Source of the DNA: Argopecten irradians
Lineage: Eukaryota > Mollusca > Bivalvia > Pectinida > Pectinidae
DNA length: 64,000 nucleotides
Assembly (NCBI RefSeq): GCF_041381155.1
Contig: NC_091137.1
Span: forward strand, 23,791,655-23,855,654
Reading direction: 5' to 3'
Shown in pieces: positions 781-57,000 of the stretch. Numbering within the stretch: position 1 is the stretch's first letter; every line of letters starts with the position of its first letter. The translations under genes were made by a program, and so were the position numbers. Under the pieces are notes generated by a model. The model saw only the letters and a list, made by a program, of their open reading frames with translations. It searched no databases and was not told the DNA's origin.

Positions 781-21990
<21,210 letters not shown>

Positions 21991-25446: not shown

Positions 25447-25585
25447 AAACATACAAACACAAACAAACATAACACACACAAACACACTCAAACACAACAT
25501 ACCCAAACACACACAAACACATACAAACACAACACACACAAAACACACACAAACACAACATACCCAAACACACACATACTCGTGC
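25447..25585. repeat. CA-rich microsatellite (ACACAAACACA type)
   Basis: Imperfect repeats of ACACACAAACACA, AACATACCC and similar. The same motif type forms the longer tract at 42005-42565. Confidence 0.9.
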
Positions 25586-26150
25586 AACATACATGTTGAG
25601 GTATGTTGTTTTTAACTTGCATTGCGAGGTATGTGTTTTCCGCTTCTAAAATGTAGTAGCCTGTGGTGTGAAATAGAAGGTAATGGGATGTGGTTGATGT
25701 TTATCGTTTTCACAATATATAAAATTAACGCGGTGCTCCGCAAATGTCACCAACACTATACATAGTTTTAGAGGTATTTACAACAATCTGCAGTTCTACA
25801 GAGGTACTTCCTTATAAGGAATTATCACATACTCGTACACAAAATTAGTACATCTTACCGAGAATAAATCAAATTATTGCGTACAAATAATTGCAATTAA
25901 ACCAGTATCGTAGTCTGTATTTTAATCTAGTTATCAGAAACTATGATTTTTTTCTATAGAGATGCCATGAATATTCCACTTTGGTTTCGAATAAAATCAA
26001 CATTGACCAGTATGGTAAACCACGAACTTTGGTTAAATATATACATGCCAAAACAATTTCCAACGTTTGAACACATCTGCCAGACCGAAGTTTTTAGAGC
26101 GAGCTCGAGAGGTAGACAATGCCGCTGAAACATTATGGACAAATTTGCAG
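25586..26150. other. Spacer, nothing recognised
   Basis: AT-rich sequence between two tandem arrays; no gene or element supported. Confidence 0.5.
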
Positions 26151-26159
26151 TGAATATTA

Positions 26160-27290
26160 GCGTGGTATGAATACTTCTCACAAGTTTGGAGTATATACTA
26201 CCGAGGTATGAACCCTTTTGATGAGTTTACTATGTATGCTACCGAGGTATGAACACATCTGACGAGTTTACAATGTATACTACCGAGGTATGAACACTTC
26301 TGATAGTTTACAATGTATGCTACCGAGGTATGAACACTTCTGACAGTTTAAAATGTATACTACCGAGGTATGAACACTTCTGACAAGTTTACAATGTATA
26401 CTACCGAGGTATGAACACTTCTGACAAGTTCACAATGTATACTACCGAGGTATGAACACTTCTGACAAGTTTACAATGTATACTACCGAGGTATGAACAC
26501 TTCTGACAAGTTTTTACAATGTATACTACCGAGGTATGAACACCTCTGACAAGTTTACGATGTACAACTTACCGAGGTATGTATACTACCGAGGTTATGA
26601 ACACTTCTGACACGTTTACAATGTATACTACCGAGGTATGAACACTTCTGACAAGTTTACAATGTATACTACCGAGGTCGATGGAACACTTCTGACAGTT
26701 TACAATGTATACTACCGAGAGATGAACACTTCTGATAGTTAACAAGGTACAACTACCGAGTTGTATGAACACTTCTGACAAGTTTTACAATGTATACTAC
26801 CGAGGTATGAACACTTCTAGATAGTTAACAAGATACAACTACTGAGGGTATGAACACTTCTGACAAGTTTACAATGTAAACTACCGAGGTATGAACACTT
26901 CTGAACACTTCTGATAGTTAACAAGGTACAACTACCGAGGTATGAACACTTCTGACAAGTTTACAATGTATACTACCGAGGTATGAACACTTCTGATAGT
27001 TAACAAGGTACAACTACTGAGGTATGAACATAGACACTTCTGACAAGTTTACAATGTAACCTTCCGAGGTATGAACACCTCAGACAAGTTTACAATGTTT
27101 ACTACCGAGGTAAGAACACTAGTACTTCTGACAAGTTTACAATGTATACTACCGGGGTATGAACACTTCTGACAAGTTTACAATGTATACTACCGAGGTA
27201 TGAACACTTCTGACAAGTTTACAATGTATACTACCGAGGTATGAATACTTCTGACAAGTTTACAATGCTATCCTACCGAGGTAAGATGAA
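26160..27290. repeat. Minisatellite, period about 41 bp, about 27 copies
   Basis: The unit reads TGAACACTTCTGACAAGTTT, ACAATGTATACTACCGAGGT, A. A variant with TGATAGTTAACAAGGTACAA recurs between about 26735 and 27015. Indels are concentrated in the right half. Confidence 0.93.
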
Positions 27291-27469
27291 CATTATTTAT
27301 TACTCTGCGCAAGTATCTTGTATGTAGGTAATCAGGTGGAAAACAGTTTTGCTAGAGGCCGTTGTCCAAATGATCACTTCACGATATTTTCGGGAAAAAT
27401 ATAGATGTATGGCATATGACTATAGATCTGTGAAATAATTCACATAGTTCACTCCTGTGTCACCTGGGC

Positions 27470-27763
27470 GCCCCCCCCCGCCCCACCCGCTCACACGCGG
27501 ATAGATTCTACATCTCAAATTTAAATCGGTGTGGGAGAGACGAGAGAGCTTCCGGGGGCTGGGTCACCAATATGGCTTCTTTGCATTGGACCAATGGCCC
27601 AATAGGGTCTCTAGACGGCCCAACCCAACCCCCCCACCCTCACCCCCCCCACCGCACACAACCCACCCCCGCCCCCCCCCCCCCCAACCCCCCCAACCCC
27701 TACATCTTGACTTATAATATGCGCTCCTCCCCCCCCCCCACCCCCACCAAAATCTGTATCCGC
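27470..27763. repeat. C-rich low-complexity tract
   Basis: Runs of C with A, such as CCCCCCACCGCACAC and CCCCCCCCCACCCCCACC, bracket a short unique segment. Proline-rich open frames here are an effect of composition. Confidence 0.85.
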
Positions 27764-29020
27764 CCCCTGTTATATGCAAGACTGTAAAGAAAAAATTACA
27801 TTATATCTCAAGATTTTATTTACTGAAACAAAAAATGGCATCGTATAATTTTCAGTGCGGAACTTAAAACTGCAATAGTCGCATGAAGGAGTTCACTGAT
27901 ACTGAACTAGTAGTTCCGTGCATAATTCATGTGAAATGGGAATTACAAATTCTTGTGACAATAAAGCTATGCATTGCATTCAAAGCTTATTTTTGTCGAT
28001 ATATTCATTTCCATAAACAGTTGCTCAGAATCAAATACAATACAGCATTGAAGTTAAACCTGTTGTATAACCTATGAAGAATATAAGCCTACTTGAGACC
28101 TTTCATGTGTAGAGATGTGTGGTTAAAAAACATGTACTGGTATATAATGAACTGTTTCATATCTTTCAAAAACAGAAAAAGAAAAAGAAGTTTATGATTT
28201 CATCGAGGCAAAAAAGAGGTTTTTTCACCCATTAAGCCATCTTCTCGATGGTGTATAATATAACATAGACTATTGCTACTCGAAAATAACGAACTAAACC
28301 TTTCCAGAAATCACTTTTTTTAAACTTGCTAAGTTGTACCATTTTTGATAACCTGAATGTTCACATTATAAGATTGACAGCTTTGTTTTCAGCCTCATTA
28401 CATCTAAATCAAACGTGAGCAGCCTCCATCGTGAGTATTTCTTATTAATAAATCCTGGAATTATGGAAACCTCTAGGAAAAGAATGACAGTATCGAGTTA
28501 AGACGATGCATCTATATAGCTCTGAGAAGATGAGGGGGTGTTTTCTCGCTTTGTTCCAGGCATCTACTTCTTGTGATTGGATTCATGATTTTATTTGGAG
28601 GCGAAGAAACCACTTAGAGAATTGAAAGAAACAACTTACTCTGTTCTAATACATCATCGCATGTTCTACTATGTCCAGTTACTGGAGGAGGTTGTCTTCA
28701 AGATATTGTTATCCTTACAAAACCTGACTTACTTTTATTCATATAAACTAGTGCATGGTCAGAGTTAGAAACTTTCACCTTTTATCAAATTTCAAAGTTA
28801 ATTTCTTTATTTTGGGAATCTGGAGCTATGGAACAGCCATGGGACATGATAAGTCACTTACCCAGTTTGTAAATAGATACTATCTCTACTAAGTAAACTC
28901 AAAAGTGAAATTTAACGTCAACATCAAATAATCTCAAAGTTTTGAGAAAAGAGCAACCTCAATGTGTACCATAATTAATCAACAATGCTAACTGAGATCA
29001 GGTACAGAAAGCAAACTGAT
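27764..29020. other. Intergenic, nothing recognised
   Basis: AT-rich spacer before the retrotransposon tail. No exon or array supported. Confidence 0.45.
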
Positions 29021-29412
29021 TTTACCTAATTTACAACCATAGACAATGAGAAAATCATTCAGCTACTCTGGAGTTGTGTCGTTGAATAATCTTCCCCTTC
29101 ATATAACAAAATCTACATGCCTTGTAACTTTTAAGTAAAAGTTAAAAAATTATTTCCTTTCAAGCTTTAATATTTTAAACACATACATTACCAACTTACA
29201 ATAATGATTGTACTTTTATCTGTACAGTATGTACTGGTAATGTCATTAATTTCACTTGTGTCCATCGTTTCCATATCAATTTTGATTGTCATGTTATGTA
29301 TTTTATTGATTCTAATCAATTTATTTGTGTTTTAATGAGGGACATTTAGAAGATTAGCTCCATGCTAAATATGTCACCCTCAGTAAATAAAGTATTATCA
29401 ATCAAGAAATGT
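29021..29412 (+). mobile_element. 3' end of a decayed non-LTR retrotransposon
   Basis: In one + frame, 29058 onward reads FSYSGVVSLNNLPLHITKST and, after a gap and one stop codon, KLKNYFLS. This matches the conserved C-terminal end of many LINE reverse-transcriptase ORFs (F-S-Y-x-G...W-N-x-L-P). It is followed by a 3' tail with GGACATTTAGAAGATTAGCT, CCATGCTAAATATGTCACCC and AATAAAG, ending in a short TCAATCAAG repeat. It has internal stops and is inactive. Confidence 0.65.
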
Positions 29413-29619
29413 GCTTAAAGTTGGATTTGACATCCAATTAACATCTACATACCGTAGAAGCTTAAAATAATATTTAAAAAGTCCATCAAACACTTTAACA
29501 GTTAAAAAGAAAACATCCATTTTGATGACTGTTTGTAAAGATAAATCGTAGTAAACCATATCACCTTCTTATGTTACAGTATTACTTGGATACATAAACT
29601 AACAATGTGACTGCTGGGT

Positions 29620-29843
29620 TTACTTTTCCTGTCCTTTCATCATTTTTTTGGTTTTTATTTTCTCCCTTGTAATCCAATTATGAATGGTGTTTTTTATTTT
29701 CTTCCACTCCAATTTCTTCAGGCAGCTATGAGCAGCAATTGCTTTGTCACATTCATTCCTTTTGAGCTCCTTGCGAAGCTTGACATTTTCCTGAAAAACC
29801 TGCCTCAGGCATTCTTCTTGACTCTTGTTCAACTTGATTTGCC
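29620..29843 (-). CDS. Gene D terminal exon: charged helical tail
   Basis: Acceptor CTTTAACAG in phase 1; ends TAA at 29622-29620. Encodes GQIKLNKSQEECLRQVFQEN, VKLRKELKRNECDKAIAAHS and a Lys-rich end. The heptad-like pattern suggests a coiled coil followed by a basic tail. Confidence 0.78.
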
Positions 29844-32800
29844 CTGTTAAAGACAAACACAACTCTTTTGTTTTCAATTTTAAAGGAAACATGTATAAAG
29901 CTATTCATGGTATTTTGCTTATGTTTCTTAATATAATGTTTCAAATACATTTGATTGTAGTACAATAAGAATGCAATTCAATATATGAAGCAGCAATGAG
30001 GTTTTTATTTTACATGTATTTATGACCTACATGTATATTGGATTTTAATAGACAGAGCAATGCTATATGTCCCTGATACAAGAATCTTGCATGGTAATAT
30101 AAACAATGGTAATAAATACACAGTTATAATATATATCTAATATAAATCAATTTGATTTTATGATAATGGTCCTGCCTCACTAAGGGCTGTTCCAGTAAAA
30201 CATATATGGTAGGGGGGGGGGGGGAAGGCACTTTGAAATTGGGAGGCCCACCGATAGAAGTGATTTTCAATTTTGTTGACCCACACACATATCTATTTTT
30301 TTGTGAACAAGACCATGGCATAGAAGCGATTTAATTTTTTATTTCACTCCGATTTGTATTTGGATTTACACATTTTGATTTCTAGATCACCAAATAGAGT
30401 CTATGGACTAAAATTAGCACTTGTATATGCGTGCAGATGAACATTTTGTTGTTGATTGCTGCATCTAATACTAAATTTGTATAAGGGTACAATCCTTGTA
30501 GAACCAGCCGTAAAAATCTTCTAGAACATACTGAAGTGTTCTGCGAAGCATACGATGCAAAAGTTGACATCTGAACATTCACACACTTAAGCTTGTGATA
30601 CTGCTAACTTGTTCCTTAACTTAATTACCAGTGAATTTAAATAAAGATCTGTTATTTTGACCAAAACTAATCTTTTGTTTCATTTTGTACCATTTGTCAA
30701 GTTTGAATGAATAGTAATAGTGTTTTAGGGATGTAAATAGTCCTCTTTATTATTTCAAAATACTGCATGAAATAAATTAATTCGTTTTTTATTGAAGATG
30801 AACTACACATTAAATATTGTCAGAAATTAACATTTTTTTTCAATATTTATTTTTGTATTTTTGTAGTCAGGATGACTAAGCAACATTATAAAACATAAAA
30901 CTTGCATTTTATTTCAAAAGGTTACAAATGCTTCAGATAGACCCACCCACAGAAGTGATTTTATTGAAACGCCACCCTGGCCACAGAAGTGACTTTTATT
31001 TTGAACCCACCATGGCACATACTATTTTTTAAAGTGCCTTCCCTGGGTGCCATATATGAATTTGCTGGAACAGCCCTAACACATAGTATGTTGGTCTAGA
31101 CTGGACCCTGTGCAAACTGGAAAACTGTCGCATGACAAAAACTAAGCTACTGATCCCAGGCGGGCGGCTGCATATTTCATTTATCTCAAAAGATTATGAT
31201 TAATGTACCTGGGACCCCCCCCCCCCCCCGCTACTTACTGTCGTGATTAATAAGATAAATTGTCTATACTTTTTTTCTTGAAAACCATACTTTAATTTAG
31301 AAGAGTGATAAACTAGAAAATATGTTGAGAGCCCAGTACAAAAGTAAAACTATGTCACACGTGGCGAACCAATCCCCCGCCCTATCATATAAAGAAATTC
31401 ACATCCAGTTCACCACTTTTGTGCCAAAGATTGCGATGTCAAGTACTAGACTGATAAAGAGAATTCTAAGGGGGAACTTTACCTATATTGGTATATCGTA
31501 GATATTAGACACAAATGTTCCTCTTTCCTGAAACGCATGAATACTTAATACATCAATTATAAACCCATGAGAGATCTATGAGAATTTTAGGATCAGTTCA
31601 CTTTGTAAGTTCGGTGTATAAATAGCAGTGTACTAATCTATAATTATCAAAATCCAAAATGGACCGAGCCCTGTTGGCCTATCGTCGTATGACAGAATGT
31701 TCTAGACACAACTTCCATCAATGGATGTGCCTTGTAAGGAAATGGAGAATGTGGAGAAGGATCCCTTTGAGGTAACTATCTGAGAACTAGCAGATTGATA
31801 ACAGAATAACCGAATCAAACGGAGCGAATTCATAGCATGACCAGCCCTGGCGGCCATCTTGTTGTCACTATTTCATACTCATAATTCCAATATGAAACAC
31901 TAGGAAACAAAGGAAACCCATACATATTTAATATTTGTAGACGAGAATTGCCAAATCAGTACATTCTGATAAATTGCAGCAGTAACATATCGATTCTCTC
32001 TTTAAACTATTAAAATCCAGGTTGGGCTGTCCCATTGGCTATTTTTGTTGACAGATGAGTTTCCAAAAATGCAATATGCATAACTATATATTCATAATAA
32101 TGAATTTGTGACAGATCCCATCTCGAATCAGTACTTTCTGAGTAATAGCGAGAACAATCTTTTAACCATCATTTATACAAAGATAGTTGGAATAGAGTCA
32201 CAACTAGAGTCCTAGGGAAAGCATTTTATAATTTTAGAAAGATTCAGTACTTTTGAGAAATAACGATAACAAGAATTGTTAATTGTAGGACGGAAGGAAG
32301 GATGGACGGATGCAGAAGTGTTTTGAAATCGAGCACAATTATCTTGAATGATAGTGGTGGGAGCGAAAAAAGGAAAACAAACATATTATCGTAAATAGGT
32401 TCAACTGAGTGCTACACACCATTTATAAGTGAAAGACCAATCTTCTTGCAATTTAAGAATCATGATGAATCATTTCGCAAGAGAAAATAAAGAGCATTTG
32501 GAATGTATTTGATCTCAGTTTATCACAGGACCTAGTTTCTTTTTTTCTATGCTATATTTAGATGAATTATATAAATAAGTTTGTATTCTCTATAAACTGG
32601 AAACTTGCATTAACTGGACAATGGACAAGGTAATTCTGACATCTGGTTTAGACAAACTACACTACACAATATCATGAATAAACAATTACAGTTCATACAA
32701 TGTTGAAACAAACCTTTCCGAGTGGAATGATGTGATCTTTCAGAAAGACTACTTTCCTTTGCAGATTTAGATCTCTTAGCAGAACATGATCCCTCAGTTT

Positions 32801-35800
32801 GATTTGATCTCTTCAGAGGATTAGGATTTGCTGGAATATATAAAATATTCGCTGGAATATATAAAAGTAAAGAAAATTCTAGATATTGCCACACAAATAG
32901 TATTTTTTTAGACCAAGCACCTTTGATCAGATGCCATAGAAAATTTCAGGTTTGTAATGATCTTTGAAGTTAGGTGTCAAAAGATAGCTTCTTGCAAAGA
33001 AAAACATCACTTATAATTTCTAGAATTATAAAAACAATATGTTTATGTGATGATTTAGAGCTTTCAAAACTATAATATGCAATATTTTCCTTAACGTTGC
33101 AAGGATATTTTGTTACCTATAATATATATCAAAGAATACTTAGTGTTTCTATGTAAGCCTATAGAAACCTTCAATTAACAATTACATTTCTTACCATCAA
33201 TTGGATGGTTTTCCATGTCATTATCACTGGATTCAGACTGTTCAAGTTCAATACCATGCAGTAACTCATCGCCACCTTCAGGTTGATCATCAAGCTCCAA
33301 GTCTATAAACCAATACACAAAGTTTAATGTCCCTATAAAATTTGGTTCATGTGAATTATTTTCTTCAAAAAACAAATTATACTCATATGAATGTTTACAT
33401 TACTACATAGTGCTTATGCACTTTCAATTTGTCTAGACCCTTGATATTTGAAATTATATGAGTCAGAGTGACAGCCACACACAAGAGAATGATTTTAACA
33501 AGTTGTCTATGACTTGTTTTGCATTTGTTACTGATCAGCTAAATTTAAACTTTCATTTATAAATCATGATGTCGGAAAATTCTGACGAAACTTGATTACC
33601 GATTTCTTACTCTATTAATTGGTCAAACACCTCAAACCAACGATACTCGACTAACTCCATTAATCGGAACACCACTATTAGACATATTTGAAATAACAGA
33701 ATGAATGGAAACTAAAACTGTAAATGTTTTCCATGAGTATATCATTAAAAACTGATAGACAGCTGCAGGTTGAAGATCAGTGTACTATATGTGTACGGTA
33801 TATAAACACATTTACGATATGGTCCACAACAATTGGTCTTTGCCTAGGATATGTCACAAATAATTTCGTTATGTATCTACCTTCATCAACTTGAATTTCT
33901 TCAATGGATTTCCCGCTGTATCTGGCAACATCTCCATTATCAAATGCTGTCAGTAACCTTCCCATTCTTGCAACCTGTAAGGTTTCCTGTGGTAGCCTGT
34001 AGAATGACCTATGAACCGCTATGTCATGCCCTAAAAAACCAGCAATGTTTTCCAAGTCATTTTTTGTCAGGTTCAAAACCTGGCTTACAGTTGCCACATG
34101 CTTACGAAGTTGGGTGCTTGTAAGGTTTTCAGGCACCGTAAGTTTTGCTTCTCTACCAAAGCGTCTGAGGCAGTCGGCACTTCTGATTGGATTGAGGGAG
34201 TCAAATGATGACCTAGGGAAAACGTACTTGTTATCTACATGAACACCAGCAGCATCTCTGTATTTCATAAGACATTCTATGCTTTTCTGAAGGGTGGTAG
34301 TCAACAGGACCGGAACAATGCGTCCCCTTTTTCCTCGAATTTCTACTCTTTCAAAGGTAGAGCATAGGGCTTTTTCCATTGGGCTTAATGATTCCTCAAT
34401 GTCTTTCAGACAACTTCCGGATTTCTGCCTTTCTTGGTAATCTTTTAGGGTGATCCTTTCTGCCTCACCCCCTCGTCTCCTGTTGAACAGCACAAGCCGA
34501 GCTAATGTTACTTGGTTCAAGGTATTCCAAGTTTCTTTTGTGAAGGTTTTTTTCAGGCTTTCTGTTAGGTTACTACTCTTTTCTTTCAGGTATTCCTGAA
34601 CTTTTTTTATGTCCTCTGTCAATGGCAAAAGTTGTCCTTTGTTCATCTTTGCTGTGCTCAATGTTTGAAGGGCCATGCCAGATACAGAATCTGTCCACTC
34701 CATTTCACACAATGACAGAAAAGCATCAGATTTTGATCCCAAAGATGTGTCTTCTGTCATCAAAGCATTTGCTTTCTGGATCATGGCACACTTCTTCAAC
34801 AGATGACCTATCTTTAGAGCAAGGGATGGATTTGAGAATTTGTTTTCACTGCAACTGTATCCACAAAGATGTCTAGTTGATTTAAGAACTGTGGGAAATC
34901 CGGTAAGAACTGTGGGAAATTTTTCTGGTTTTAGTACATCCGCAAGAGAGTTAATGTCTGTGTCAACTTCCCGTGCACTTAATAGGAAACGTCCTAACTC
35001 CCTCATTTTCTGACTTACATACACAAACAGATGCGGTAAGTGTCCATGCTTTTGGAAAAGTTTCTCTCCTAGGCGAATTATTGTGGCATCATTGCGCACA
35101 ACTTGTGTAACTTTGTCAGCTTTCATATGGCCAATGACCTTTTTCTGCAAAGCGTCACAGACATCTACTGAAGCAGGAAGCAAGAGATTAGCCTCTGACC
35201 TCAAATGCTTCATATGTGTATCATTTTTTCTGAGTGAGCACACCCTCCTATGTCTCCAAAGATTAGATTTCAGAAAAAAACCAAGACAATCCTCACATGG
35301 TAAGTAGTCCTCTGGTGAGAGTTTATTATCCTCATTCCTTGTCCAAGTTACAAATATTCCACTTCCAGTTTTTAACACATCTGTGTTGTGATGATAGTCC
35401 CCACTATTTCGTAACTTCAATAAACCTAGCCTTCTTTCTTCCGACTTCACAGGATATGATAAGATCCTCTGGACTTCAGTTTCATTTTTGTGCGGTCCAA
35501 AGTAGTGCTTAGTGATATTAGTATAGCCCTCATGACAGTATAAACAAAAATGTTTTTTATCCCAAACTCGCACACCATCCTTATTATTTGAGTTTTGAAC
35601 AAGTAAGCCATTACTACTTGGATCTTTTTTCTGAATTTTGGTGTTATGCAAAGCAGTAAATGGAATGATAGTCGACATTGTGTCATCATCTGAATCATCA
35701 ATAACATCACTCTCCAACTCTGAAGTTGTTAAAACAAAATCTGGATCTGCATCACTATCCCCATCAAAAAAGGATTCATCATCTGATGCCTGATCCATTT

Positions 35801-38800
35801 CTAATTCAGGAAACAAAGGTTGGTCGAAGTCTGAAAAATCTTCAGAGTCTGAGGACTGTTCAATGAGTGAAAACGATTTCTGATTAATATAGGAACATGA
35901 AGTCTGGCTCATGTCTGGACAGGAGGAAGTTTTCACAAAGTCTGGAGGATCTGGCTGGTTTGTGTCAACATCTGGAGGCTTAGACTGGTTTATGACAACA
36001 TCTGCAGGATTTAGCTGGTTTATATCAACATCTGTAGGATCTGGCTGGTTTGTGTCAAAATCTGTAGGATTTGGTTGGTTTGTGTCAACATCTGTAGGAT
36101 CTGGCTGGTTTGTGTCAACATCTGTAAGATTTGGCTGGTTTGTGTCAACATCTGTAGGATTTGGCTGGTTTGTGTCAACATCTGTAGGATCTGGCTGGTT
36201 TGTGTCAACATCTGTAGGATCTGGCTGGTTTGTGTCAACATCTGTAGGATCTGGCTGGTTTGTGTCAACATCTGTAGGATCTGGCTGGTTTGTGTCAACA
36301 TCTGTAGGATCTGGCTGGTTTGTGTCAACATCTGTAGGATCTGGCTGGTTTGTGTCAACATCTGTAGGATCTGGCTGGTTTGTGTCAACATCTGTAGGAT
36401 CCTTGGCTGGTTTGTGTCAACATCTGTAGGATCTGGCTGGTTTGTGTCAACATCTGTAGGATCTGGCTGGTTTGTGTCAACATCTGTAGGATCTGGCTGG
36501 TTTGTGTCAACATCTGTAGGATCTGGCTGGTTGGTGTCAACATCTGTAGGATCTGGCTGGTTGGTGTCAACATCTGTAGGATCTGGCTGGATGGTGTCAA
36601 CATCTGTAGGATCTGGCTGGTTTGTGTCAACATCTGTAGGATCTGGCTGGATGGTGTCAACATCTGTAGGATCTGGCTGGATGGTGTCAACATCTGTAGG
36701 ATCTGGCTGGTTTGTGTCAACATCTGTAGGATCTGGCTGGATGGTGTCAACATCTGTAGGATCTGGCTGGATGGTGTCAACATCTGTAGGATCTGGCTGG
36801 TTGGTGTCAACATCTGTAGGATCTGGCTGGATGGTGTCAACATCTTGAGGATCTGGCTGGTTTGTGTCAACATCTGTAGGATCTGGCTGGTTGGTGTTAA
36901 CATCTGTAGGATCTGGCTGGTTTGTGTCAACATCTGTAGGATCTGGCTGGTTTGTGTCAACATCTGTAGGATCTGGCTGGATGGCGTCAACATCTGTAGG
37001 ATCTGGCTGGATGGTGTCAACATCTTGAGGATCTGGCTGGTTTGTGTCAACATCTGTAGGATCTGGCTGGTTGGTGTTAACATCTGTAGGATCTGGCTGG
37101 ATGGTGTCAACATCTTGAGGATCTGGCTGGTTTGTGTCAACATCTGTAGGATTCGTCTGATGCATGTCAACATTTGAAGAATATGGCTGTTTTATGTCAA
37201 CATCTGGTGGAATTGGCTGGTTTGTCTCTGTACACCCTGTAACATCAAGATATACTACAATAGTAATTGTCCAATTTTGAAGCTGTCCTTATAAAGTTTT
37301 TGCTTTATTCATTGTATTTATTGCCTTTTTTAATCACCAAAGCATTGCTAAATATTCCTTTCAGTTGTGAAATCTGTATCTATTTGTAGCCCTGTTTTTT
37401 TCATCAAATTTTTCACTTTCCAGTGAGTTTATCGATGAAGTATTTTGGATGTAACCGATAAAGATATGATCATTGTCTAGGGCACAATATAGGAAATGAT
37501 TGTTTTTACATATAATGTGAAGATAGAATTGAAGTTGGCAGAGGGAAAAGTCGGCTTATGTCTTCAACAATACGCTGGTACATTGATATGTATACAACCT
37601 ATATTTAAAGATAATTTATCCTACCTCTTTGTTGAAGCATCATCATATCCCTCCTATATGTTTTCTTATATTCTGCAGACAATTTCACTGCAAGTTAAAT
37701 AGAAATCAGTGCAATAATGATATCACAGTGATTATAATACCTAATCTACATATGATTAGCATTGAATGAGATGTTCTTTTAAATGTGCAGTTCACTTTAA
37801 TAATATGCCATGTCTTTTTATTTTCAAACTTAAATATGATAATGAAAATTATCACTTTGCTTAAACAATTTCATAGTATACAATTTCTGTAAAGTATATG
37901 ATATGCTTTGTCAAAAAACATACGTAAAGACCTCTTGATCCTAGGATCATCTTCAGATGACGGCATTGGACACCAATTACCCTTTGTCAATGGTATGCTA
38001 CAAGGCAAAGGGGAGAGATATGAAAACTGCTGTATTTTAAGATTCAGGTTAAAACAGCAACAAAAGGAAACAGAAAAACTTAGGATAGTGATCTAGTTCG
38101 TTTACAGTGTTCCTGCCATTTTTGACTAGATGTTGATGAGAACAAACAGGGACTTTAATGAGATCACAATTAATAATTTATTAATAGTTGGTAATAACAT
38201 AAGAAACTTGATTTAAAAGTTATTTACATCATATCATCTATATTCAGTATTAATAAGCATGCTTACCTAACCTCATCTTCCTCATTGAGGAAAGTTCCAC
38301 ATGTACCTCCATCAATCACATACCCCGGCCACCAGATGCCACCATTTATTTTGATCAGTATCTCACCTACATATACAGCTACAGGTTCATGTATAGCTGA
38401 AAAAAAAGAAGTTATATTGTTTGTCATTAATGGAATTTCATTATAATGAAGTTTAATGAATGAAAAAACCAACAAACAATGATAAATCCTCAGAGTAAGG
38501 CGCTGAACATTTTTAGCTCACCTCTCAAAAACAGAAAGAGAGAGGGGGGAGGGAGCTTATCAGTGATATCACCCTGGCATCTGCATGCCCGTCAGCGTTG
38601 GAAATGCCCAGGTTATGGTTTTTGGTGCAAGTGTTGAAATACTGTTATTTGAAACAACTGACATTGAAATCAATAGTAATTTTGGTATATATATAATTAT
38701 AGTGATAGATATGGAAAATCATTTTAAGGAAGAAAATGCTGGATTTTGAGAATTTCAAGACTAAAGAGGTCCACTGAAATGGCTAAGTTAAGACTTTGGT

Positions 38801-39538
38801 GTAAGTGGAGGGGCGAGCTTGTTATAAACATTCTAAAGAGCTGAAAGCTTAAGTAAGTCTTTATACAATCCATTTGAAAGCAGAAGTGTTCATGTAACAC
38901 ATCTAAGTTAAAGTTCACGTTCATTGACTTATATGTGTAAAATTAAAATGGATCGTGACACAGTTAATACATTTATTTTATTTATTGGTTTTGCTTATCT
39001 TCCACAAACTAAATATACATGTAGCTAGTTTGGAACCCTGCAATTACAACCTTACACATGCTGGATAGTGTCATACCAGCTACATATGCTCCATTCAACC
39101 ATCCATTCATAATCATAGCAATGCAAGATTGAATAAGTAAATCTCTGGTACTTGAACTTATTGCAATTTTGTTTTGTTCATAACAATGTCAATGTTTTGA
39201 ATAAAAAAATATATATGAATTATAAACAAAAACAAAAACATCCATCATTTTAATGTATATGTCCAATGTGGTACATGTGCTGAACATAAATGTAAACACT
39301 TAGCACCCAGTTATAAATGATCTTTCAATAAATGGTATAAAGGCACTGATTTAATATATATAGGCTGTAATAAAAAAATATATATGAATTATATGAACCC
39401 CAGTTGATATCTAGCTATATTTTAAAATGGAATAAATGAAGAATCAAGGATGTGCACATGTCGAACTACAATAAAATAATTATTACCATTCTCCTTTTTC
39501 TTTTTTGACATTGGTCCTGTTTTCTTTTTCCTCCCCAT
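29620..39538 (-). CDS. Gene D: PWWP/Tudor-like, decapeptide-repeat, zinc-finger, tyrosine-recombinase-like protein
   Basis: Eight exons on the minus strand: 39538-39487 (ATG), 38396-38267, 37997-37924, 37687-37625, 37236-33881, 33302-33195, 32830-32714 and 29843-29620 (TAA). All junctions are GT-AG and phase-compatible, about 1,373 residues if a 2-bp insertion near 36401 is ignored. Order: Lys-rich N-terminus, a PWWP/Tudor-like segment, about 42 Asp/Pro decapeptides, an acidic region, C2H2- and C2HC-type zinc motifs, a tyrosine-recombinase-like domain, acidic and Ser/Lys-rich segments, and a charged helical tail. Basic motifs and zinc fingers suggest nuclear location. The recombinase part resembles Crypton-type elements, but its active site is incomplete (see the exon entry). 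The intron-rich structure suggests a host or domesticated gene; an intron-bearing Crypton remains possible. Confidence 0.78.
30184..31076. mobile_element. Non-autonomous PIF/Harbinger-like element, 893 bp
   Basis: The left end GGGCTGTTCCAGTAAAACAT, ATATGG, GGAAGGCACT is mirrored at the right end by AGTGCCTTCCCTGGGTGCCA, TATATGAATTTGCTGGAACA, GCCC, about 46 bp of inverted repeat. TAA flanks both ends (30181-30183 and 31077-31079), the 3-bp target duplication typical of PIF/Harbinger. Sub-terminal CACAGAAGTGA motifs are repeated. No transposase frame is present. Confidence 0.8.
31480..32310. repeat. Degenerate tandem repeat, unit about 180 bp
   Basis: The landmark GAGCCCTGTTGGCC, AGCCCTGGCGGCC, GGGCTGTCCCATTGGC recurs at about 31668, 31843 and 32025. 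The landmark TCAGTACTTTCTGA recurs in between. It ends near GGACGGAAGGAAGGATGGAC, a common trailer of bivalve dispersed repeats. Confidence 0.55.
32714..32830 (-). CDS. Gene D exon: Ser/Lys-rich segment
   Basis: 117 bp, phase 1-1. Encodes ANPNPLKRSNQTEGSCSAKR, SKSAKESSLSERSHHSTRKG: basic and Ser-rich, with possible nuclear-localisation clusters (KR, AKRSK). A second acceptor TTCCAG lies exactly 21 bp upstream (see findings). Confidence 0.75.
33195..33302 (-). CDS. Gene D exon: acidic segment
   Basis: 108 bp, phase 1-1, acceptor GTTTATAG, donor GATG|GTAAGA. Encodes DLELDDQPEGGDELLHGIEL, EQSESSDNDMENHPID, strongly acidic. It joins in frame to the donor at 33881. Confidence 0.75.
33303..33880 (-). 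other. Gene D intron; alternative read-through 3' end of the large exon
   Basis: The frame of the large exon stays open past the donor GAAG|GTAGAT to a stop at 33777. An unspliced transcript would therefore end with about 34 other residues. The spliced form is preferred because all downstream exons fit in phase. Confidence 0.55.
33881..37236 (-). CDS. Gene D large exon: decapeptide array, zinc motifs, tyrosine-recombinase-like domain
   Basis: Acceptor GATGTTACAG in phase 1. From about 37215 to 35937 it encodes a repeated decapeptide (consensus DTNQPDPTDV, variants TIQ and QDV). A 2-bp insertion near 36401 (GGATCCTTGG in place of GGATCTGG on +) shifts the frame within the array. Next come acidic Ser/Asp stretches, a C-x2-C-x9-H-x4-H motif (35546-35490) and CEDCLGFFLKSNLWRHRRVC (35297-35238). 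The recombinase-like region (about 34520-33999) has NRRRGGEAERITLKDY for the first Arg box, RGKRGRIVPV for the Lys strand, LTSTQLRKHVAT for the H-x-L-R box, and FLGHDIAVHRSFY with the final Tyr. The first His of the second box is Thr, so full activity is uncertain. The second Arg, LGH and Tyr are present. Resembles Crypton-type recombinases by motif order. Confidence 0.8.
35937..37215. repeat. 30-bp coding minisatellite, about 42 copies
   Basis: The + strand unit reads GGATCTGGCTGGTTTGTGTC, AACATCTGTA. In-phase variants change single codons (TTGGTG, ATGGTG, CTTGAGG). The 30-bp period preserves frame on the minus strand as ten residues per unit, so the array is read as part of gene D. The + strand frames (SGWFVSTSVG type) are by-products. 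Confidence 0.92.
37625..37687 (-). CDS. Gene D exon 4
   Basis: 63 bp, phase 1-1, acceptor TAACTTGCAG, donor AGAG|GTAGGA. Encodes KLSAEYKKTYRRDMMMLQQR, a basic helical stretch. It joins in frame to exons 3 and 5. Confidence 0.68.
37924..37997 (-). CDS. Gene D exon 3
   Basis: 74 bp, phase 2 in and phase 1 out, acceptor GCCTTGTAG, donor TTAC|GTATGT. Encodes SIPLTKGNWCPMPSSEDDPR, IKRSL. The phase fit with both neighbours is the main support. Confidence 0.66.
38267..38396 (-). CDS. Gene D exon 2: PWWP/Tudor-like segment
   Basis: 130 bp, phase 1 in and phase 2 out, acceptor CTTTTTTTTCAG, donor TTAG|GTAAGC. Encodes EPVAVYVGEILIKINGGIWW then PGYVIDGG. V-G-x-x-(hydrophobic)-x4-G-x-W-W-P-G-x-V is the core of PWWP and related Tudor-type chromatin-reading barrels. 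Only one exon (43 residues) is covered, so the fold is inferred from a short motif. Confidence 0.7.
38510..38840. repeat. Degenerate bivalve-type dispersed repeat
   Basis: Begins TTTTTAGCTCACCTCTC, followed by GGGAGCTTATCAGTGATATC and CCCGTCAGCGTTGG, and later GGGGCGAGCTTG. It resembles the dispersed repeat family found in many bivalve introns. Lies in gene D intron 1. Confidence 0.45.
38841..39486 (-). other. Gene D intron 1, remainder
   Basis: AT-rich intron between the start exon and the PWWP-like exon. The phrase AAAAAAATATATATGAATTATA occurs twice (about 39203 and 39373). No gene recognised. Confidence 0.45.
39487..39538 (-). CDS. Gene D exon 1: start codon and Lys-rich N-terminus
   Basis: Begins at ATG (39538-39536) and encodes MGRKKKTGPMSKKKKEN, with donor AATG|GTAATA in phase 1. 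The start is chosen because the frame joins exon 2 cleanly. CTTGATTTAG lies directly before the ATG, so an intron in the 5' untranslated region is possible. The Lys clusters could act as a nuclear-localisation signal. Confidence 0.68.
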
Positions 39539-39540
39539 CT

Positions 39541-42004
39541 AAATCAAGAAAAATATTACATTAAAAAAAGAAAGCAAAGTAAAGTTCCAATTAATTTAAG
39601 TGTCAAATTCAATATAGATGTATGCATACAATATGAACATTTCTGTGTACTATTTGTCAGTCCGGTCAGTCATCTATAACGTCATGTGCGTACACATGTG
39701 TATACCTTGTGGATATATCCTACATATATAGTACTGGTATGTCACATCATTGCGTTTTTATGAAAGGACTTCATTTGTAGAGTAGAAACTTTTGGCACAG
39801 AGTACACCCCGACAACACACTAGACAACCCTTTAAATGCTTTTTATCATGGATAGGGGCATATTATATGGCATAGTTATGTTAGTCTGGTAGATCCAGGC
39901 CTCAAAGTAACATTTTAAGAAATTATACTGGTCACATGGCAAGTGACCACTGCATTTTACTTGCCAGGTGTCCAGATCAGTGTTGTCAGGATATTGAACA
40001 TGTCATGTTCAGTATGCAATATAAAACATTCACCAAAACTGCTATTGCTATATATATGCATGTGCATATTTCCTTTTATAATTTGTAGTTAATTGTAAAG
40101 AGTGTTAAAAGGACTAAATGAAGATTGGAAACAAATTCATTTGCAACTAATTATAAATAATCAACCATAAAGTATAAAATTTGTTTTCTGATTAGTTATT
40201 GACAAGTAAAACCCAGTAAAATTGTCAAATGATTAAAACATCCTTAATCAATGCAATCCAGTACAAAAATAAAAGAAGCATATGAAGTTTTCTGTAATCA
40301 TCAAAATAATTACTGCCGATTAACAAAAGATGAGATTTAGCTTTACTTATAATTACTGTAAAGACATGTGTATCATGGTATTGATCCATGCACCATATAA
40401 TTGACATTTTTTCCCTTATTTGATATTAGGTAAACAAGATTCTATAAGTTCCACACATAAATAATTACTCAGCAAATCTAGAGGAAGTCATCAATATTCT
40501 TCAAATCGAAAAATCTAGGGAAACATCGTTTCAATGCAGCTTGATTTCTGAAGTCTTTTTTGAGCAGTTTAATACAAAAACAAATCTAAGGTCATTAAGA
40601 CGTTTGAATATAATGGTAACTATATATAATCAAGCACCTTGGTAATACTGATGCAAATGTATACAAATAAGAAAAACATTTTTTCCCCCTGATTTTTCAT
40701 TCGCCACATGGCGATATGGAACATTTTTAAACTTGCCTTGGGAATTTTTAATTGCATATACGAGTAAATAACTTTCAACTTTGAGGTCTGTGATTGCCTA
40801 ACTAGGGCGGTAATTAATCTATAAGGTAAAACCTCCTTGTCTTCCCAAATGGCAAATTTGACGGCACAGAGGTAACTGCAATGGAATCCTCGATGTCTAT
40901 GTTAGACAATAAGCTGATGCTTTTGGTCCAGAATTCATTTTAACAAACGATAATACCAAAATTTAAATTACACAAGAAAACTTAACTTAAAATTTCATTT
41001 TTGCTCCCATTGCCAATTAACTTGTTTTTGTGATTTTGGGAGGTAGCATCTGTTTCGCAAGTAATGTATTGAGCAGCTGCACTCATTGTATATTTCATAA
41101 CTTTATTCCGTTGGAATCTGTGGTAAGACATCTTAAAGACATCATTTAAACTATTTTTTATGAATATTGTACAATAAAATGACTTTGATATATTACAAAA
41201 TGAAAGTGATCCTTAGCAAATTTGAGCAGTATTAGATCTCCCGAGACCATTCTTAAAATCTTAAAACTCATATAAAAACAAACTTTCCAATAAGCCACAT
41301 AGGTTACTATCAACTGCTTCAGGAGCCATGCATCTGCTCTGCAGTTTCTGGAATATTTCTGTGTTTATTTTAAATCTTACCTTTAATCAAAAGTAAAACT
41401 TTTCCCAAGCTTAGACCATCACATCAAATCATAAATAAACACATCAAAATCATTAAAAAGAACAAAATTGAATTGCGGCAGTAAAATGCCAGCTGCATCA
41501 TAAAATATCAAAAAGTTGAATCCACAAATAAAAAAATCTCTAAGACATCAAACTCAAAATCTGAACAAAAGGTACACAGTTGGGAGTATTCAAAGTCGGA
41601 ATATAAAACCAATGAAGCCGAAAGGAATGTCGCTGGGTCATGGTTCAAACAAAATTAAAGAAATCGTGTGTAAATGAAGAAATAAAATTTTGAAATATTT
41701 AAAAAAAAAGCATCAATCTGAAAAAAAAAAGAAAAAAAGTAAAAATTTTGTTGTAATAATACACAAAAAACTAAAGTCATGTTTCGCGTTTTGTACCTTT
41801 TTATTGACCTGGTCCACATGGACATTTATAGTCTTTTATATGAAAAAAATATATTAACACCACAGAAATGTAGATACACATGTAACTAAAGACTTTATTT
41901 TGTGTGTTTCTTGCTATTTTTTCATATAAAGACTATACATGTCCCTGCATTAGGCCATTTAATTGTCCCTAATTAACTATATAAACCACTCGTGTTTGTT
42001 GTAA
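39541..42004. other. 5' flank of gene D, nothing recognised
   Basis: About 2.4 kb of AT-rich sequence that should hold the gene D promoter. An A-rich stretch lies at about 41700-41750. CTTTTATATGAAAAAA and TTTTTTCATATAAAG (near 41834 and 41918) form a loose inverted pair. No promoter element can be assigned with confidence. Confidence 0.45.
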
Positions 42005-42565
42005 TACACACACACAAACACACACACACACAAACACACACACACAACACACACACACACACACACAACACACACAAAACAACACACACAACACACACAA
42101 ACACACACACGCAAACACACACAAACACAACACACACAAACACACTCAAACACAACACACACAAACACAACACACACAAACACACACAAACACAACACAC
42201 ACAAACACAACACACACAAACACACTCAAACACAACACACACAAACACAACACACACAAACACACTCAAACACAACACACACAAACACAACACACCATAC
42301 ACACACAAACACAACACACCCAAACACACAAACACACACAAACACAACACACAACACAACACCCAAAACACACACAAACACAACTCACCTAAACACACAC
42401 AAACACAACACACCCAAACACACACAAACACAACACACCCAAACACACACAAACACAACACACACAACACACACAAACACAACACAAACACACAAACACA
42501 CAACACACACAAACACACACACACAACACACACAAACACACACAAACACACACAAAACACAACAG
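42005..42565. repeat. CA-rich microsatellite, about 560 bp
   Basis: Imperfect ACACACAAACACA, AACACAACACAC and AACACACTCAAACAC repeats. Frames on both strands stay open for this reason (His/Thr on +, Cys/Val on -) and are not genes. Confidence 0.95.
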
Positions 42566-44078: not shown

Positions 44079-44343
44079 ATTTCACACACAACTAATGACA
44101 GAGGTATCTAGAGAGAATACAACAACATATACAAGAAAAGAAAATATACAGTTAATTTAATATTCAATATTATTTAAGCAGACTAATTTGTTGATTGTGA
44201 TGTTATTACCTTAAAACCATTTATACCATTTCAAAAACGTGTATTGCTCCGAGCGCATGGGTTTTACAGCAAACTCGTGCATGGAAAAAACTATCCTTAC
44301 CCTTTGTGGTTAGAGAAAAACACAAATTCATTTTTTCTTACAG

Positions 44344-44622
44344 TGACAACTCCTTCTCCATGTACCACAGACGATATTGAAAACGCAGAAGCATTGTTGT
44401 GGCAAAACAGCCTTATATCAGGTTCGAGCGCGCATACAGTATCAGAATGTATAAGAAATGAATGTCGCCCACCGACTTATGGTATCATCACAGAGGCAGC
44501 AGTGACTAGCAGATTGTCAGAGGAACACGACTCTGGCGTCGACTGTGCTTCCTATGAGAAAGGAACAATAGCAGCTGTGGTAGAATCACCTGGTAAAACG
44601 TTCCATAGATGTATATGTCCAG
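44344..44622 (+). CDS. Locus B exon: 93-residue six-cysteine domain
   Basis: 279 bp after TTTTCTTACAG. Encodes VTTPSPCTTDDIENAEALLW, ECIRNECRPPTYGII and HRCICPG. All six cysteines of the copy at 19042-19320 are kept. Confidence 0.83.
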
Positions 44623-46156
44623 GTATGTGAAAATACTTAATTACACAAATTAATTTGTTCAAATTAATATGTTGTGTCCATGGTGATGAGCACATCATAT
44701 AATTATTAAGTAGTGGTTCTTCAAGCAATACATCCACGCATTGATTTTAAGTTTAAGCAATTGTGTATAATATTTAGAATGATAAATATAAATGATAACT
44801 CGTTCCTTTTTTGTACATGAATGACATTAACTAAACTGGGAGAATGTTGCTCATATACCTATTATATTACCAAAGCAAAAATGTTCAAGATTAATTCCCA
44901 TGATGTTGTTTCAAAACAGGATGTTAAGTTAACCGGAACGTATGGTTCTACCTTAGTTTTACATATTCAGTATCTTCTGTACTAATACCTGTTGTGTTTT
45001 TGTAACGAATTATTTAGTCGGTCTTGAAGCCAGATATCCTTTTTGATGTATTCATTAGTTTTTAAATCATGAATACTATAGAAAATAGCACTTATGTTTC
45101 GTTTTTGTTCCATTGTGCCGCATTAGGTTTTACCTGCGGATTAGGTCAGACAAAGTGTGCCACTTCGGGAGAGTGTATAGTGAACGAGAGGGTATGTGAT
45201 GGTCAACGTGACTGTAGTGACGGTTCGGACGAGGGCAGTTGTGGTAAGTTAAAATCCCACCAAGCAGTTCAAAGATAGGAGAGCTGATTGCTTATCATTC
45301 CCCATGAAAGATATCCCGCATTTGGTTATTGTAGTTATCTTCTCTTACCGATATGTTTTGATTGTGATGCTGTGTGCATACAACGTCGTATCATTTAAGA
45401 GAAAACGACATGGGTTTTGCTTACGGATTGATTACGTCACAACAGCTACCTACCTACATAACTCATTAATATGCAAAGATGGTGCTTCAGTATCGCCCGT
45501 CTAGCTCGGTTTTTCAAATAAAAACCACACTTAAAATCATGTGCACACAATATATTTCTCTTTCGTTGTAGATGAAATGTTGATCCTAACAGAACAGCAG
45601 AGCGGTGGAATCGTAATGATATGGTATAGGACCCTAACAACACTTGTCTGTGACCATGGTACAAAATTCACCGACCGTGAAGCTCGAGTAATTTGTAAAG
45701 CTATGGGATTCAGGTATATACAATGAACATTTCTGTTTTAAAATGCTGACGTCGTCATCACTTTTCTTGTTTCTTTCTTAATTTCAGATATATTTAACAA
45801 CGTCGTAATCGTAAATGAATTGTAATAAATGCTAAATGAGGACACTTCTTGTGGTCAATAAAAACAACTTTCCATACAATTTGAGTTGTGTGTAAAAAGT
45901 AAAAAGATCATTTTAGCCGTACATCTGTGTGTCTTTGTTGACAGTTTTGAAGGTTTCACTGCTTATACAGTTTCCTAATTTGCGTTGCAGGGGTGGTACT
46001 CGATCTTCTTCTGGAAGGAAAGTCCTCGATACAAAAGCATGGCTCAGCCTTACCTGCAGCGAAACTGCGACATCGATGTCTGAATGTGAACAGGAATGGA
46101 TTGTGTTCCGACACGCATGCGCCAGTATGATACCAGCAGCGGTCAATTGTTACTAA
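44344..46156 (+). CDS. Locus B: duplicate of the last four exons of gene A
   Basis: Exons 44344-44622, 45127-45243, 45572-45713 and 45991-46156 match the gene A exons at 19042, 19749, 20436 and 21822 in order and phase. The first three also match in length exactly; the last ends with TAC TAA, one codon shorter. Encoded are the 93-residue cysteine-rich domain, an LDLa domain and the degenerate SRCR. Exons are much better conserved than introns, and no frameshift or stop interrupts them, which suggests constraint. No upstream exon (signal peptide, SRCR, Ig or six-cysteine) was found back to 39541. It may be a 5'-truncated gene, an alternative 3' cassette spliced to upstream exons of gene A in phase 1, or a decayed copy. 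Gene D lies between A and B on the opposite strand. Confidence 0.75.
45127..45243 (+). CDS. Locus B exon: LDLa domain
   Basis: 117 bp, acceptor GCATTAG. Encodes FTCGLGQTKCATSGECIVNE and VCDGQRDCSDGSDEGSC, a complete LDLa with the DCSDGSDE calcium cluster. Confidence 0.9.
45335..45480. mobile_element. Foldback MITE family F, copy 3 (inverted)
   Basis: TAGTTATCTTCTCTTACCGA, ATTGTGATG, GAGAAAACGACATGGG, GATTACGTCACAACAGCTAC and ACATAACTCATTAATATGCA match family F of 7863-8040 in reverse orientation. It lies between the LDLa and SRCR-like exons of locus B. Confidence 0.55.
45572..45713 (+). CDS. Locus B exon: degenerate SRCR-like domain, N-terminal half
   Basis: 142 bp, acceptor TTCGTTGTAG, donor TTCAG|GTATAT. 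Encodes DEMLILTEQQSGGIVMIWYR, LTTLVCDHG and REARVICKAMGF. Lacks the WGT of canonical SRCR, as does the gene A copy. Confidence 0.8.
45991..46156 (+). CDS. Locus B terminal exon: degenerate SRCR-like domain, C-terminal half, and stop
   Basis: Acceptor TTGCGTTGCAG. Encodes GGTRSSSGRKVLDTKAWLSL, TCSETATSMSECEQEW and HACASMIPAAVNCY, then TAA. It is very close to the exon at 21822-21990 even at third codon positions. Confidence 0.87.
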
Positions 46157-54000: not shown

Positions 54001-57000
54001 GCAAAAAAAGGGACATCTTTCACTTCTTACGTGCACATGTGATTTAAGCCAGCAGGACTGGTGACAGTTGACATATCAATATTTGTGACGTGGTCCAGAC
54101 AGGCCAGAGCTTCCAGAATGTCACAGTGTGCACCTGAAGTTGTGAAACGTACTCACTACAACGTTTACGTTACACCAGATACAGTCGAACGTACTCACTA
54201 CAACGTTAACGTTACACCAGATACAGTCGAACGTACTCACTACAACGTTTACGTTACACCAGCTACAGTCGAACGTACTCACTACAACGTTTACGTTACA
54301 CCAGATACAGTCGAACGTACTCACTACAACGTTAACGTTACACCAGATACAGTCGAACGTACTCACTACAACGTTTACGTTACACCAGATACAGTCGAAC
54401 GTACTCACTACAACGTTTACGTTACACCAGATACAGTCGAACGTACTCACTACAACGTTAACGTTACACCAGATACAGTCGAACGTACTCACTACAACGT
54501 TTACGTTACACCAGATACAGTCGAACGTACTCACTACAACGTTTACGTTACACTAGATACAGTCGAACGTACTCGTTACAACGTTAACGTTACACCAGAT
54601 ACAGTCGAACGTACTCATTACAACGTTTACGTTACACCAGATACAGTCGAACGTACTCACTACAACGTTTACGTTACACCAGATACAGTCGAACGTACTC
54701 ACTACAACGTTAACGTTACACCAGATACAGTCGAACGTACTCACTACAACGTTAACGTTACACCAGATACAGTCGAACGTACTCATTACAACGTTAACGT
54801 TACACCAGATACAGTCGAACGTACTCATTACAACGTTTACGTTACACCAGATACAGTCGAACGTACTCACTACAACGTTAACGTTACACAGATACAGTCG
54901 AACGTACTCATACAACGTTAACGTTACACTAGATACAGTCGAACGTACTCATTACAACGTACGTTACACAGATACAGTCGAACGTACTCATTACAACGTT
55001 TACGTTACACCAGCTACAGTCGAACGTACTCACTACAACGTTAACGTTACAGCAGATACAGTCAAACGTACTCACTACAAGATCAACGTTACACTTGATA
55101 CAGTCGAACGTACTCACTTCAACGTTAGTTACACCAGCTACAGTGTACTCACTACAACGTTAAAGTTACACCAGATACAGTCGAACGTACTCACTAAACG
55201 TTAACGTTACACCAGATACAGTCGAACGTACTCATTACAACGTTAACGTTACACCAGATACAGTCGAACGTACTCATTACAACGTTTACGTTACACCAGA
55301 TACAGTCGAACGTACTACTCATTACAACGTTTACGTTACACTAGATACAGTCGAACGTACTCATTACAACGTTTACGTTACACCAGATACAGTCGAACGT
55401 ACTCACTACAACGTTTACGTTACACCAGATACAGTCGAACGTACTACTCACTACAACGTTAACGTTACACCAGATACAGTCGAACGTACTCATTACAACG
55501 TTAACGTTACACTAGATACAGTCGAACGTACTCATTACATTACAACGTTACGTTACACTACACAGATACAGTCGAACGTACTCACTTCAACGTTAACGTT
55601 ACACTAGATACAGTCGAACGTACTCTCATTACAACGTTAACGTTACACCAGATACAGTCGAACGTACTCATTACAACGTTTACGTTACACCAGATACAGT
55701 CGAACGTACTCATTACAACGTTTACGTTACACCAGATACAGTCGAACGTACTCACTACAACGTTAACGTTACACCAGATACAGTCGAACGTACTCACTAC
55801 AACGTTAACGTTACACAGATACAGTCGAACGTACTCATTACAACGTTAACGTTACACCAGATACAGTCGAAACGTACTCTCTACAACGTTTACGTTACAC
55901 CAGATACAGTCAAACGTACTCACTACAACGTTAACGTCACACCAGATACAGTCGAACGTACTCACTACAAACTTAACGTTACACCAGATACAGTCGAACG
56001 TACTCACTATAACGTTTACTTTACACCAGATACAGTCGAACGTACTCACTACAACGTTTACGTTACACTAGATACAGTCGAACGTACTCACTACAACGTT
56101 AACGTTACACAGATACAGTCGAACGTACTCACTACAACGTTTACGTTACACCAGATACAGTCGAACGTACTCACTACAACGTTAACGTTACACAGATACA
56201 GTCAAACGTACTCACTACATACAATCGTTTACGTTACACTGATACAGTCGAACGTACTCACTACAACGTTAACGTTACACCAGATACAGTCAACGTACTC
56301 ACTACAACGTTTACGTTACACTAGATACAGTCGAACGTACTCACTACAAGTTTACGTTACACTATACAGTCGAACGTACTCACTACAACGTTTACGTACT
56401 ACATACAGTCGAACGTATCACTACAGTTTACGTTACACAGATACAGTCGAACGAATCACACTAGTTCGTACACAGATACAGTCGAACGTACTCACTATCA
56501 ACGTTTACGTTACACCAGATACAGTCGAACGTACTCACACTACTATGTTTACGTTACACTAGATACAGTCGAACGTACTCACTACTATGTTTACGTTACA
56601 TAGATACAGTCGAACGTATCACTACTATGTTTACGTTACACTACAGTACAGTACACTAACGTCGAACGTAAGCACTACTATGTTTACGTTACACTAGATA
56701 CAGTCGAACGTACTCACTACTATGTTTACGTTACACTAGATACAGTCGAACGTACTCACTACTATGTTTACGTTACACTAGATACAGTCGAACGTACTCA
56801 CTACTATGTTTACGTTACACTAGATACAGTCGAACGTACTCACTACTATGTTTACGTTACACTAGATACAGTCGAACGTACTCACTACTATGTTTACGTT
56901 ACACTAGATACAGTCGAACGTACTCACTACTACGTTTACGTTACACTAGATACAGTCGAACGTAAGCACTACTATGTTTACGTTACACTTAGATACAGTC

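Follow-up and report, generated by a model that had tools for sequence, protein, structure and literature searches.

Gene D of Argopecten irradians, with a PWWP-like segment and a tyrosine recombinase, probably belongs to a mobile element found at CA microsatellites

Closest described systems

The closest precedent found was the telomere-repeat-inserting tyrosine recombinases of endogenous nimaviruses, as characterized in the available parts of their description (Kawato and others, PMC10871703). According to these parts, the C2H2 part of the nimaviral recombinases is arm-binding, the elements lie in telomere repeats, and predicted multi-exon relatives of the recombinases occur in 28S rDNA. For animal Cryptons, the accessible text of Kojima and Jurka (PMC3212892) gives neither terminal repeats nor a C-terminal domain, and the DUF3504 genes are stated there to have lost the tyrosine and the second arginine.

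The window, a stretch of 64,000 nucleotides from Argopecten irradians (contig NC_091137.1, positions 23,791,655 to 23,855,654), contains an eight-exon gene, gene D, with a PWWP-like segment and a tyrosine recombinase. With the nimaviral recombinases, as excerpted from PMC10871703, it shares the C2H2 zinc-binding part, the insertion into simple repeats and, as in some of their relatives, the multi-exon structure. Compared by description, the nimaviral elements are large, many-gene viral genomes in (TAACC)n, whereas the elements studied here measure 17–18 kb, had one gene found in them, lie in (CA)n and carry the PWWP-like segment. Cryptons and DUF3504 genes, as portrayed in the same portion of PMC3212892, likewise feature a tyrosine recombinase in animals, in DNA elements or in genes that descend from these. 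Unlike the DUF3504 genes covered there, the window gene has kept the tyrosine and the second arginine (LRKH, FYRLP); unlike the animal Cryptons, one of the two families described below has an imperfect inverted repeat (16/21) and both have a conserved C-terminal exon. The label Crypton-like, which a sequence-only reading of the locus had applied to the recombinase, was not borne out: DUF3504, the Crypton-derived domain, had no match in any Pfam scan of the family proteins, and the size, microsatellite target and subterminal arrays differ from what that portion reports for animal Cryptons.

Fungal Starship giant transposons, in the summaries at hand, are also large elements with a tyrosine recombinase gene. 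The Starship captain gene bears DUF3435, for which the window protein had no Pfam match. Starships mobilise many cargo genes, whereas no cargo was present among the frames scanned here. In the literature searched, which leaves most subscription journals outside, no paper was found that treats PWWP and Crypton together; in the text available of PMC11244446, PWWP and a tyrosine recombinase both appear, in separate contexts. Among the papers on CA-targeting, giant or molluscan elements listed by a search with most subscription journals and Repbase beyond its range, PMC10871703 alone, in the parts available, described anything similar.

Gene D and its recombinase

Gene D is encoded on the minus strand and comprises the following features (window positions).

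39487..39538, minus strand: exon 1, with the basic start MGRKKKTG; GT-AG borders and phases
38267..38396, minus strand: exon 2, PWWP-like segment ILIKINGGIWWPGYVIDGG; splice borders, weak profile matches and related exons on other contigs
37924..37997, minus strand: exon 3; splice borders and two further matches on contig C51
37625..37687, minus strand: exon 4; splice borders and phases
33881..37236, minus strand: exon 5, with the acidic repeat, the zinc-binding motifs and the recombinase
35941..37225, minus strand: 30-bp array in exon 5, approximately 43 copies, encoding TDVDTNQPDP-type repeats; frame broken near 36400
35490..35546, minus strand: zinc-binding motif 1, CLYCHEGYTNITKHYFGPH; C, C, H and H invariant in 3/3 rows of alignment A1
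35238..35297, minus strand: zinc-binding motif 2, CEDCLGFFLKSNLWRHRRVC; C, C, H and C invariant in 3/3 rows of alignment A1
33990..34484, minus strand: recombinase catalytic region, with NRRRGGE at 34484, RGKRGR at 34337, TQLRKH at 34115, LGHD at 34034 and FYRLP at 34004
33195..33302, minus strand: exon 6, acidic linker
32714..32830, minus strand: exon 7, Ser/Lys-rich linker; end placed one base over by eye, to GT
29620..29843, minus strand: exon 8, conserved C-terminal domain containing EWKKIKNTIHNWI, then stop

The eight exons of the sequence-only reading, with GT-AG borders and matching phases, were confirmed after the one-base shift in exon 7. An open frame across all of them was not: two extra bases near 36400, in the exon 5 array, place the upstream exons (from exon 4) and the recombinase in different frames, so that the assembled window does not encode one continuous protein. 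The frame of exon 5 was broken in all three copies of the window family in the assembly, with breaks on C973 and C172 unlike that of the window; the breaks may be genuine or may stem from misassembled repeats. In the second family, the large exon was open in two of the five copies with a left end. In the copies on C3, C13 and C4:5.0 Mb, the recombinase exon was followed downstream by a counterpart of exon 8 (63% identity, E 4e-24).

Outside the repeat, the exons of the window differed from those on C973 at 3 of 2807 aligned bases and from those on C172 at none. The introns differed at 2 of 1835 bases for introns 2–6, by 1.1% for intron 1 and by 8–10% for intron 7. Since introns 2–6 are nearly identical too, the similarity of the exons is by itself no sign of selection, and the claim of purifying selection on gene D was dropped, these introns being as similar between copies as the exons. 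Selection is neither shown nor excluded by this pattern of divergence.

Within exon 5, the two zinc-binding motifs and, after them, the recombinase residues R, K, LRKH, LGH and Y were found in the proposed order. A 315-aa stretch around the window recombinase matched Pfam Phage_integrase with E 4e-6 and a score equal to the cut-off (27.1 bits); longer stretches of the window protein scored 24 and 25.1 bits, below it. Alignment A1 comprised three family members, with identities to the first of 49% for the second and 38% for the third; one of the three had a Phage_integrase match. R, K and LRK were common to all three rows, and LGH/MGH and the tyrosine to both rows reaching that far. From the tyrosine recombinase signature R-K-H-R-H/W-Y, the residues R, K, R, H and Y were present in order, with His-II replaced by Thr. 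This substitution had been read correctly from the sequence and, since all three aligned members carry Thr at this position, does not represent decay of gene D. A single-sequence AlphaFold prediction reached a pLDDT of 34 only, and a PDB profile search returned five matches at E up to 1, none of them a recombinase. Ten pattern matches to relatives in viral contigs were obtained, of which none was confirmed, and no relatives were found in phages. Proteins similar to gene D are presumably common in the gene sets of fish, cnidarians and molluscs.

The exon-2 peptide (40 aa) had PWWP as its only Pfam match, a weak one (E 0.21; 12.6 bits, with the cut-off at 25.6). PWWP matches covered about the first 20 profile positions only, with scores (12.6 bits for the window, and 14.7 bits for a paralogous exon) below the cut-off. 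The sole PDB match of the spliced N-terminus was PWWP2B (E 0.39, weak), and PWWP was again the only Pfam match of the paralogous exon on C651 (E 0.046, weak); queries of 64, 89 and 128 aa from the spliced N-terminus had no Pfam match. When the N-terminal exons were used as the query, PWWP-like exons were located upstream of recombinase matches, on the same strand, on C10 (approximately 13 kb, E 0.0019), C651 (12 kb, E 0.0023), C2 (9 kb, E 0.0072) and C416 (14 kb, E 1.3e-4). The matches on C10, C651 and C2 cross a TAG, as expected of a match extending beyond the exon end. As the C10 and C651 blocks are near-identical, these represent about three independent cases. Further PWWP-like exons, with no recombinase match among those scored, occurred on C51, C219, C422 and C298 (E 0.26). 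C51 carried two copies of exon 3 and a single copy of exon 2, adjacent to the same acidic repeat. A PWWP-like exon was looked for in the C3 family and not found.

The proposed fusion of the PWWP-like segment to the recombinase was supported by the location of the window-family exons inside one block and by the same arrangement on four more contigs. At the gene level the fusion is likely; a chromatin-reading role of the segment is only a proposal. We consider it unlikely that the PWWP-like exons are part of a separate gene merely upstream of the recombinase. Such a gene would fit the broken frame between the two parts in 3/3 copies, the weakness of the domain match and the result for the C3 family, but the splice phases of the PWWP-like exons and the recombinase exon match, the same-strand exon lies 9–14 kb upstream in the cases listed above, and C51 has retained exons 2 and 3 next to the acidic repeat.

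Copies, termini and target

The genome (846 Mb, 1508 contigs) was searched for the recombinase, and 76 of 132 candidates were scored, so that the counts are lower bounds: at least 80 matches at no fewer than 49 places on at least 29 contigs (matches within 10 kb joined). The features of the copy in the window were as follows.

25449..25576, no strand: left half of an AC-rich array, the putative insertion target (TRF)
25577..42005, no strand: mobile element, window copy, right-truncated; full length estimated at approximately 18.4 kb; block also on C973 and C172
25577..25595, plus strand: left terminus, TACTCGTGCAACATACATG, directly after CACACA; identical junction at C973:3908
26138..27292, no strand: 41-bp tandem array with CGAGGTA, candidate recombinase arm sites
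42006..42562, no strand: right half of the AC-rich array; approximately 2.6 kb with the right terminus of the element is missing from the window copy

The block at 25577–42005 recurred on C973 and C172, and outside it only short dispersed repeats matched (66–81% identity). Mismatches to the window amounted to 0–2.3% per region outside 27.3–32.7 kb and 6–10% inside, in addition to large gaps in the arrays. The left ends of the window and C973 copies both followed directly after CACACA and had different flanks. C973 and C172 were rejected as haplotigs of the window locus, as their flanks differ from those of the window. The right end of the window copy was likewise rejected as a true terminus: C172, which lacks a left end, extends approximately 2.6 kb further, to an end (near 45107) that aligns with the right end of the second family and meets an imperfect CA tract, and the estimate for the full element follows from this end. 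Of 103 20-mers, the left and right arrays of the window had 16 in common in direct orientation and none with the reverse complement, and thus resemble a single array that the insertion has split. No second full-length match to the right flank of the window was obtained among the best 40 of 3523 candidates scored. With its frame broken by the 2-bp insertion and its right terminus missing, the window copy looks like a broken, dead insertion.

Approximately 0.9 kb of the window (30183–31076) was absent from C172, owing either to a deletion there or to a nested insertion in the window. Two open frames flanking the element (18819–19343 and 44187–44630) contained segments with 67% identity over 96 aa, which places it between paralogous host exons. 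A weak SRCR match (E 0.024) was located at 20375–20803, and a 42-bp minisatellite of approximately 134 copies at 54146–59784.

The left flank on C973 (C973:1001-3850) corresponded to C16:19584509-19587351 at 98% over all 2850 bases (best 40 of 14579 candidates scored). Beyond this flank, the CA tract on C16 was unbroken and gave way to a short TA tract and then to other sequence, with no element, unlike C973, in which the CA tract leads straight into the element. The C973 contig ends inside the element, and the empty site on C16 covers the left side only. In the genome, the right flank on C16 had only itself as a full-length match (best 40 of 1101 candidates scored).

A second family, with a recombinase 49% identical to that of the window, was represented by four copies with both ends, on C3, C4 and C13. 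End to end, these copies measured 17.2 kb (C3), 18.2 kb (C4) and 17.4 and 18.4 kb (C13). Blocks of approximately 17 kb shared by C3, C4:5.0 Mb and C13 were mostly 97–99% identical (88% in one 3.4-kb stretch), and their flanks were unrelated; the C4:5.0 Mb copy lacked the right terminus. The left terminus of this family, TACCCGTTTACCAAG, is related to that of the window family.

A left-end pattern containing CA was dropped as proof of CA targeting because it is circular. The left ends of the second family were therefore sought with a pattern preceded by 16 unspecified bases (first base not G) and CA not required, which gave five matches against one in the control. Four of the five lay directly after (CA)8, and the left end at C4:5.02 Mb came after (CA)6-CGAA, i.e., a short interruption. 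As background, (CA)7 with at most one mismatch directly preceded 150 of 602832 strand positions (2.5e-4) in the sequence retrieved. The right-end search gave seven matches against three in the control, and four of the seven had a same-strand left-end partner 17–18 kb away. Three of these four paired right ends met a CA run: those on C3, C4:4.98 Mb and C13:31.2 Mb were followed by ACACACACAC and that on C13:15.7 Mb by ACACATG. Among the three unpaired matches, CA followed on C19 and not on C1 or C6. The right ends of the two families align with each other. The C3 ends match each other as an inverted repeat, imperfectly, at 16 of 21 bases, with a score reached by 0 of 300 shuffles; for the window, the right end of which is not the true end, an inverted repeat was unclear (26 of 300 shuffles). 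The termini thus lie directly at a simple repeat, as in repeat-inserting tyrosine recombinase elements, and CA targeting is well supported by these sequence comparisons.

Element-like left ends after CA (here with CA as part of the pattern) were also noted at C8:11012146 and C14:32757421, with no recombinase match nearby among those scored; these are possible non-autonomous copies. The blocks on C7, C10 and C651 were rejected as mobile copies, the C7 border (near 34836038) being a 10-N scaffold gap; these near-identical blocks may be misplaced haplotypes. C563/C14 gave no sign of mobility.

Both families have subterminal CGAGGTA arrays. In the window copy, 24 of 29 GAGGTA occurrences lay in the first tenth, and in C3 the first tenth held 13 of 15 and the last tenth the other 2. 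In a ranking of 1169 hexamers by enrichment in the initial 2 kb of C973 and C3 over the interiors, ACCTCG and GAGGTA (together CGAGGTA) took the top two places. The two families have different tandem units (41 bp in the window, a spacing of approximately 73 bp in C3), with one 20-base stretch alike. By analogy with arm-binding integrases, the arrays may be binding sites.

Nature of the element and its rivals

The CA-tract termini in two families, the unrelated flanks, the left-side empty site on C16, the CGAGGTA arrays and the one multi-exon gene, which runs from the right side of the element toward the left, led us to interpret the block as a mobile element, with high confidence. Gene D is probably the single gene of this mobile DNA element and not a tamed host gene. 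More specifically, the sequences make it very probable that gene D is the sole gene of a family of DNA transposons of approximately 17–18 kb, driven by the tyrosine recombinase and inserting into (CA)n microsatellites.

Domestication of the recombinase in a host gene had been suggested by the sequence-only reading. It would require the copies to be segmental duplications or leftover haplotigs, and we regard it as very unlikely. The eight-exon structure is in its favour, as is the near-identity of the exons outside the repeat (3/2807 differences between the window and C973) next to differences of 0.7–8% in intron 1, intron 7 and the outer parts; however, with only 2/1835 differences in introns 2–6, the exon figure holds no evidence of selection. 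The window flanks are unlike those of C973 and C172, the copies end at CA tracts, and C16 has an empty CA site. Near-identical copies with termini, at odds with a host gene, were largely found. Descent from part of an endogenous large DNA virus would account for the combination of a C2H2 domain with a tyrosine recombinase and for the simple-repeat location, both reported for nimaviruses in the sections of PMC10871703 available, but the paired ends are just 17–18 kb apart. In one C3 copy, three of the four other open frames of at least 100 aa within the element were scanned; they had no Pfam match at E 0.1 and contained no viral core genes, short spliced genes between the termini being possible. 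A viral origin is, in our judgement, very improbable.

For the mobile element, the following sequence of events is conceivable. The zinc-binding part would bind the CGAGGTA arrays as arm sites, and the recombinase would pair a CA-containing junction of a circular form of the element with a chromosomal CA tract. Conservative strand exchange would then leave CA at both sides. Less surely, the PWWP-like segment might tether the recombinase to a chromatin state and thereby bias which CA tract is chosen. Animal genomes commonly contain CA microsatellites. We tentatively propose, as a plausible reading, a non-viral superfamily of animal DNA transposons that combines PWWP-like chromatin reading with a zinc-binding part on CGAGGTA arm-site arrays and uses the CA tract as the crossover, any CA microsatellite being a potential att site. 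If this is true, a recombinase that places 18 kb of DNA without a long fixed site would choose its target in a way unusual among enzymes of this class and could account for some microsatellite-linked structural variation, and the steering of a tyrosine recombinase by a chromatin reader would become testable.
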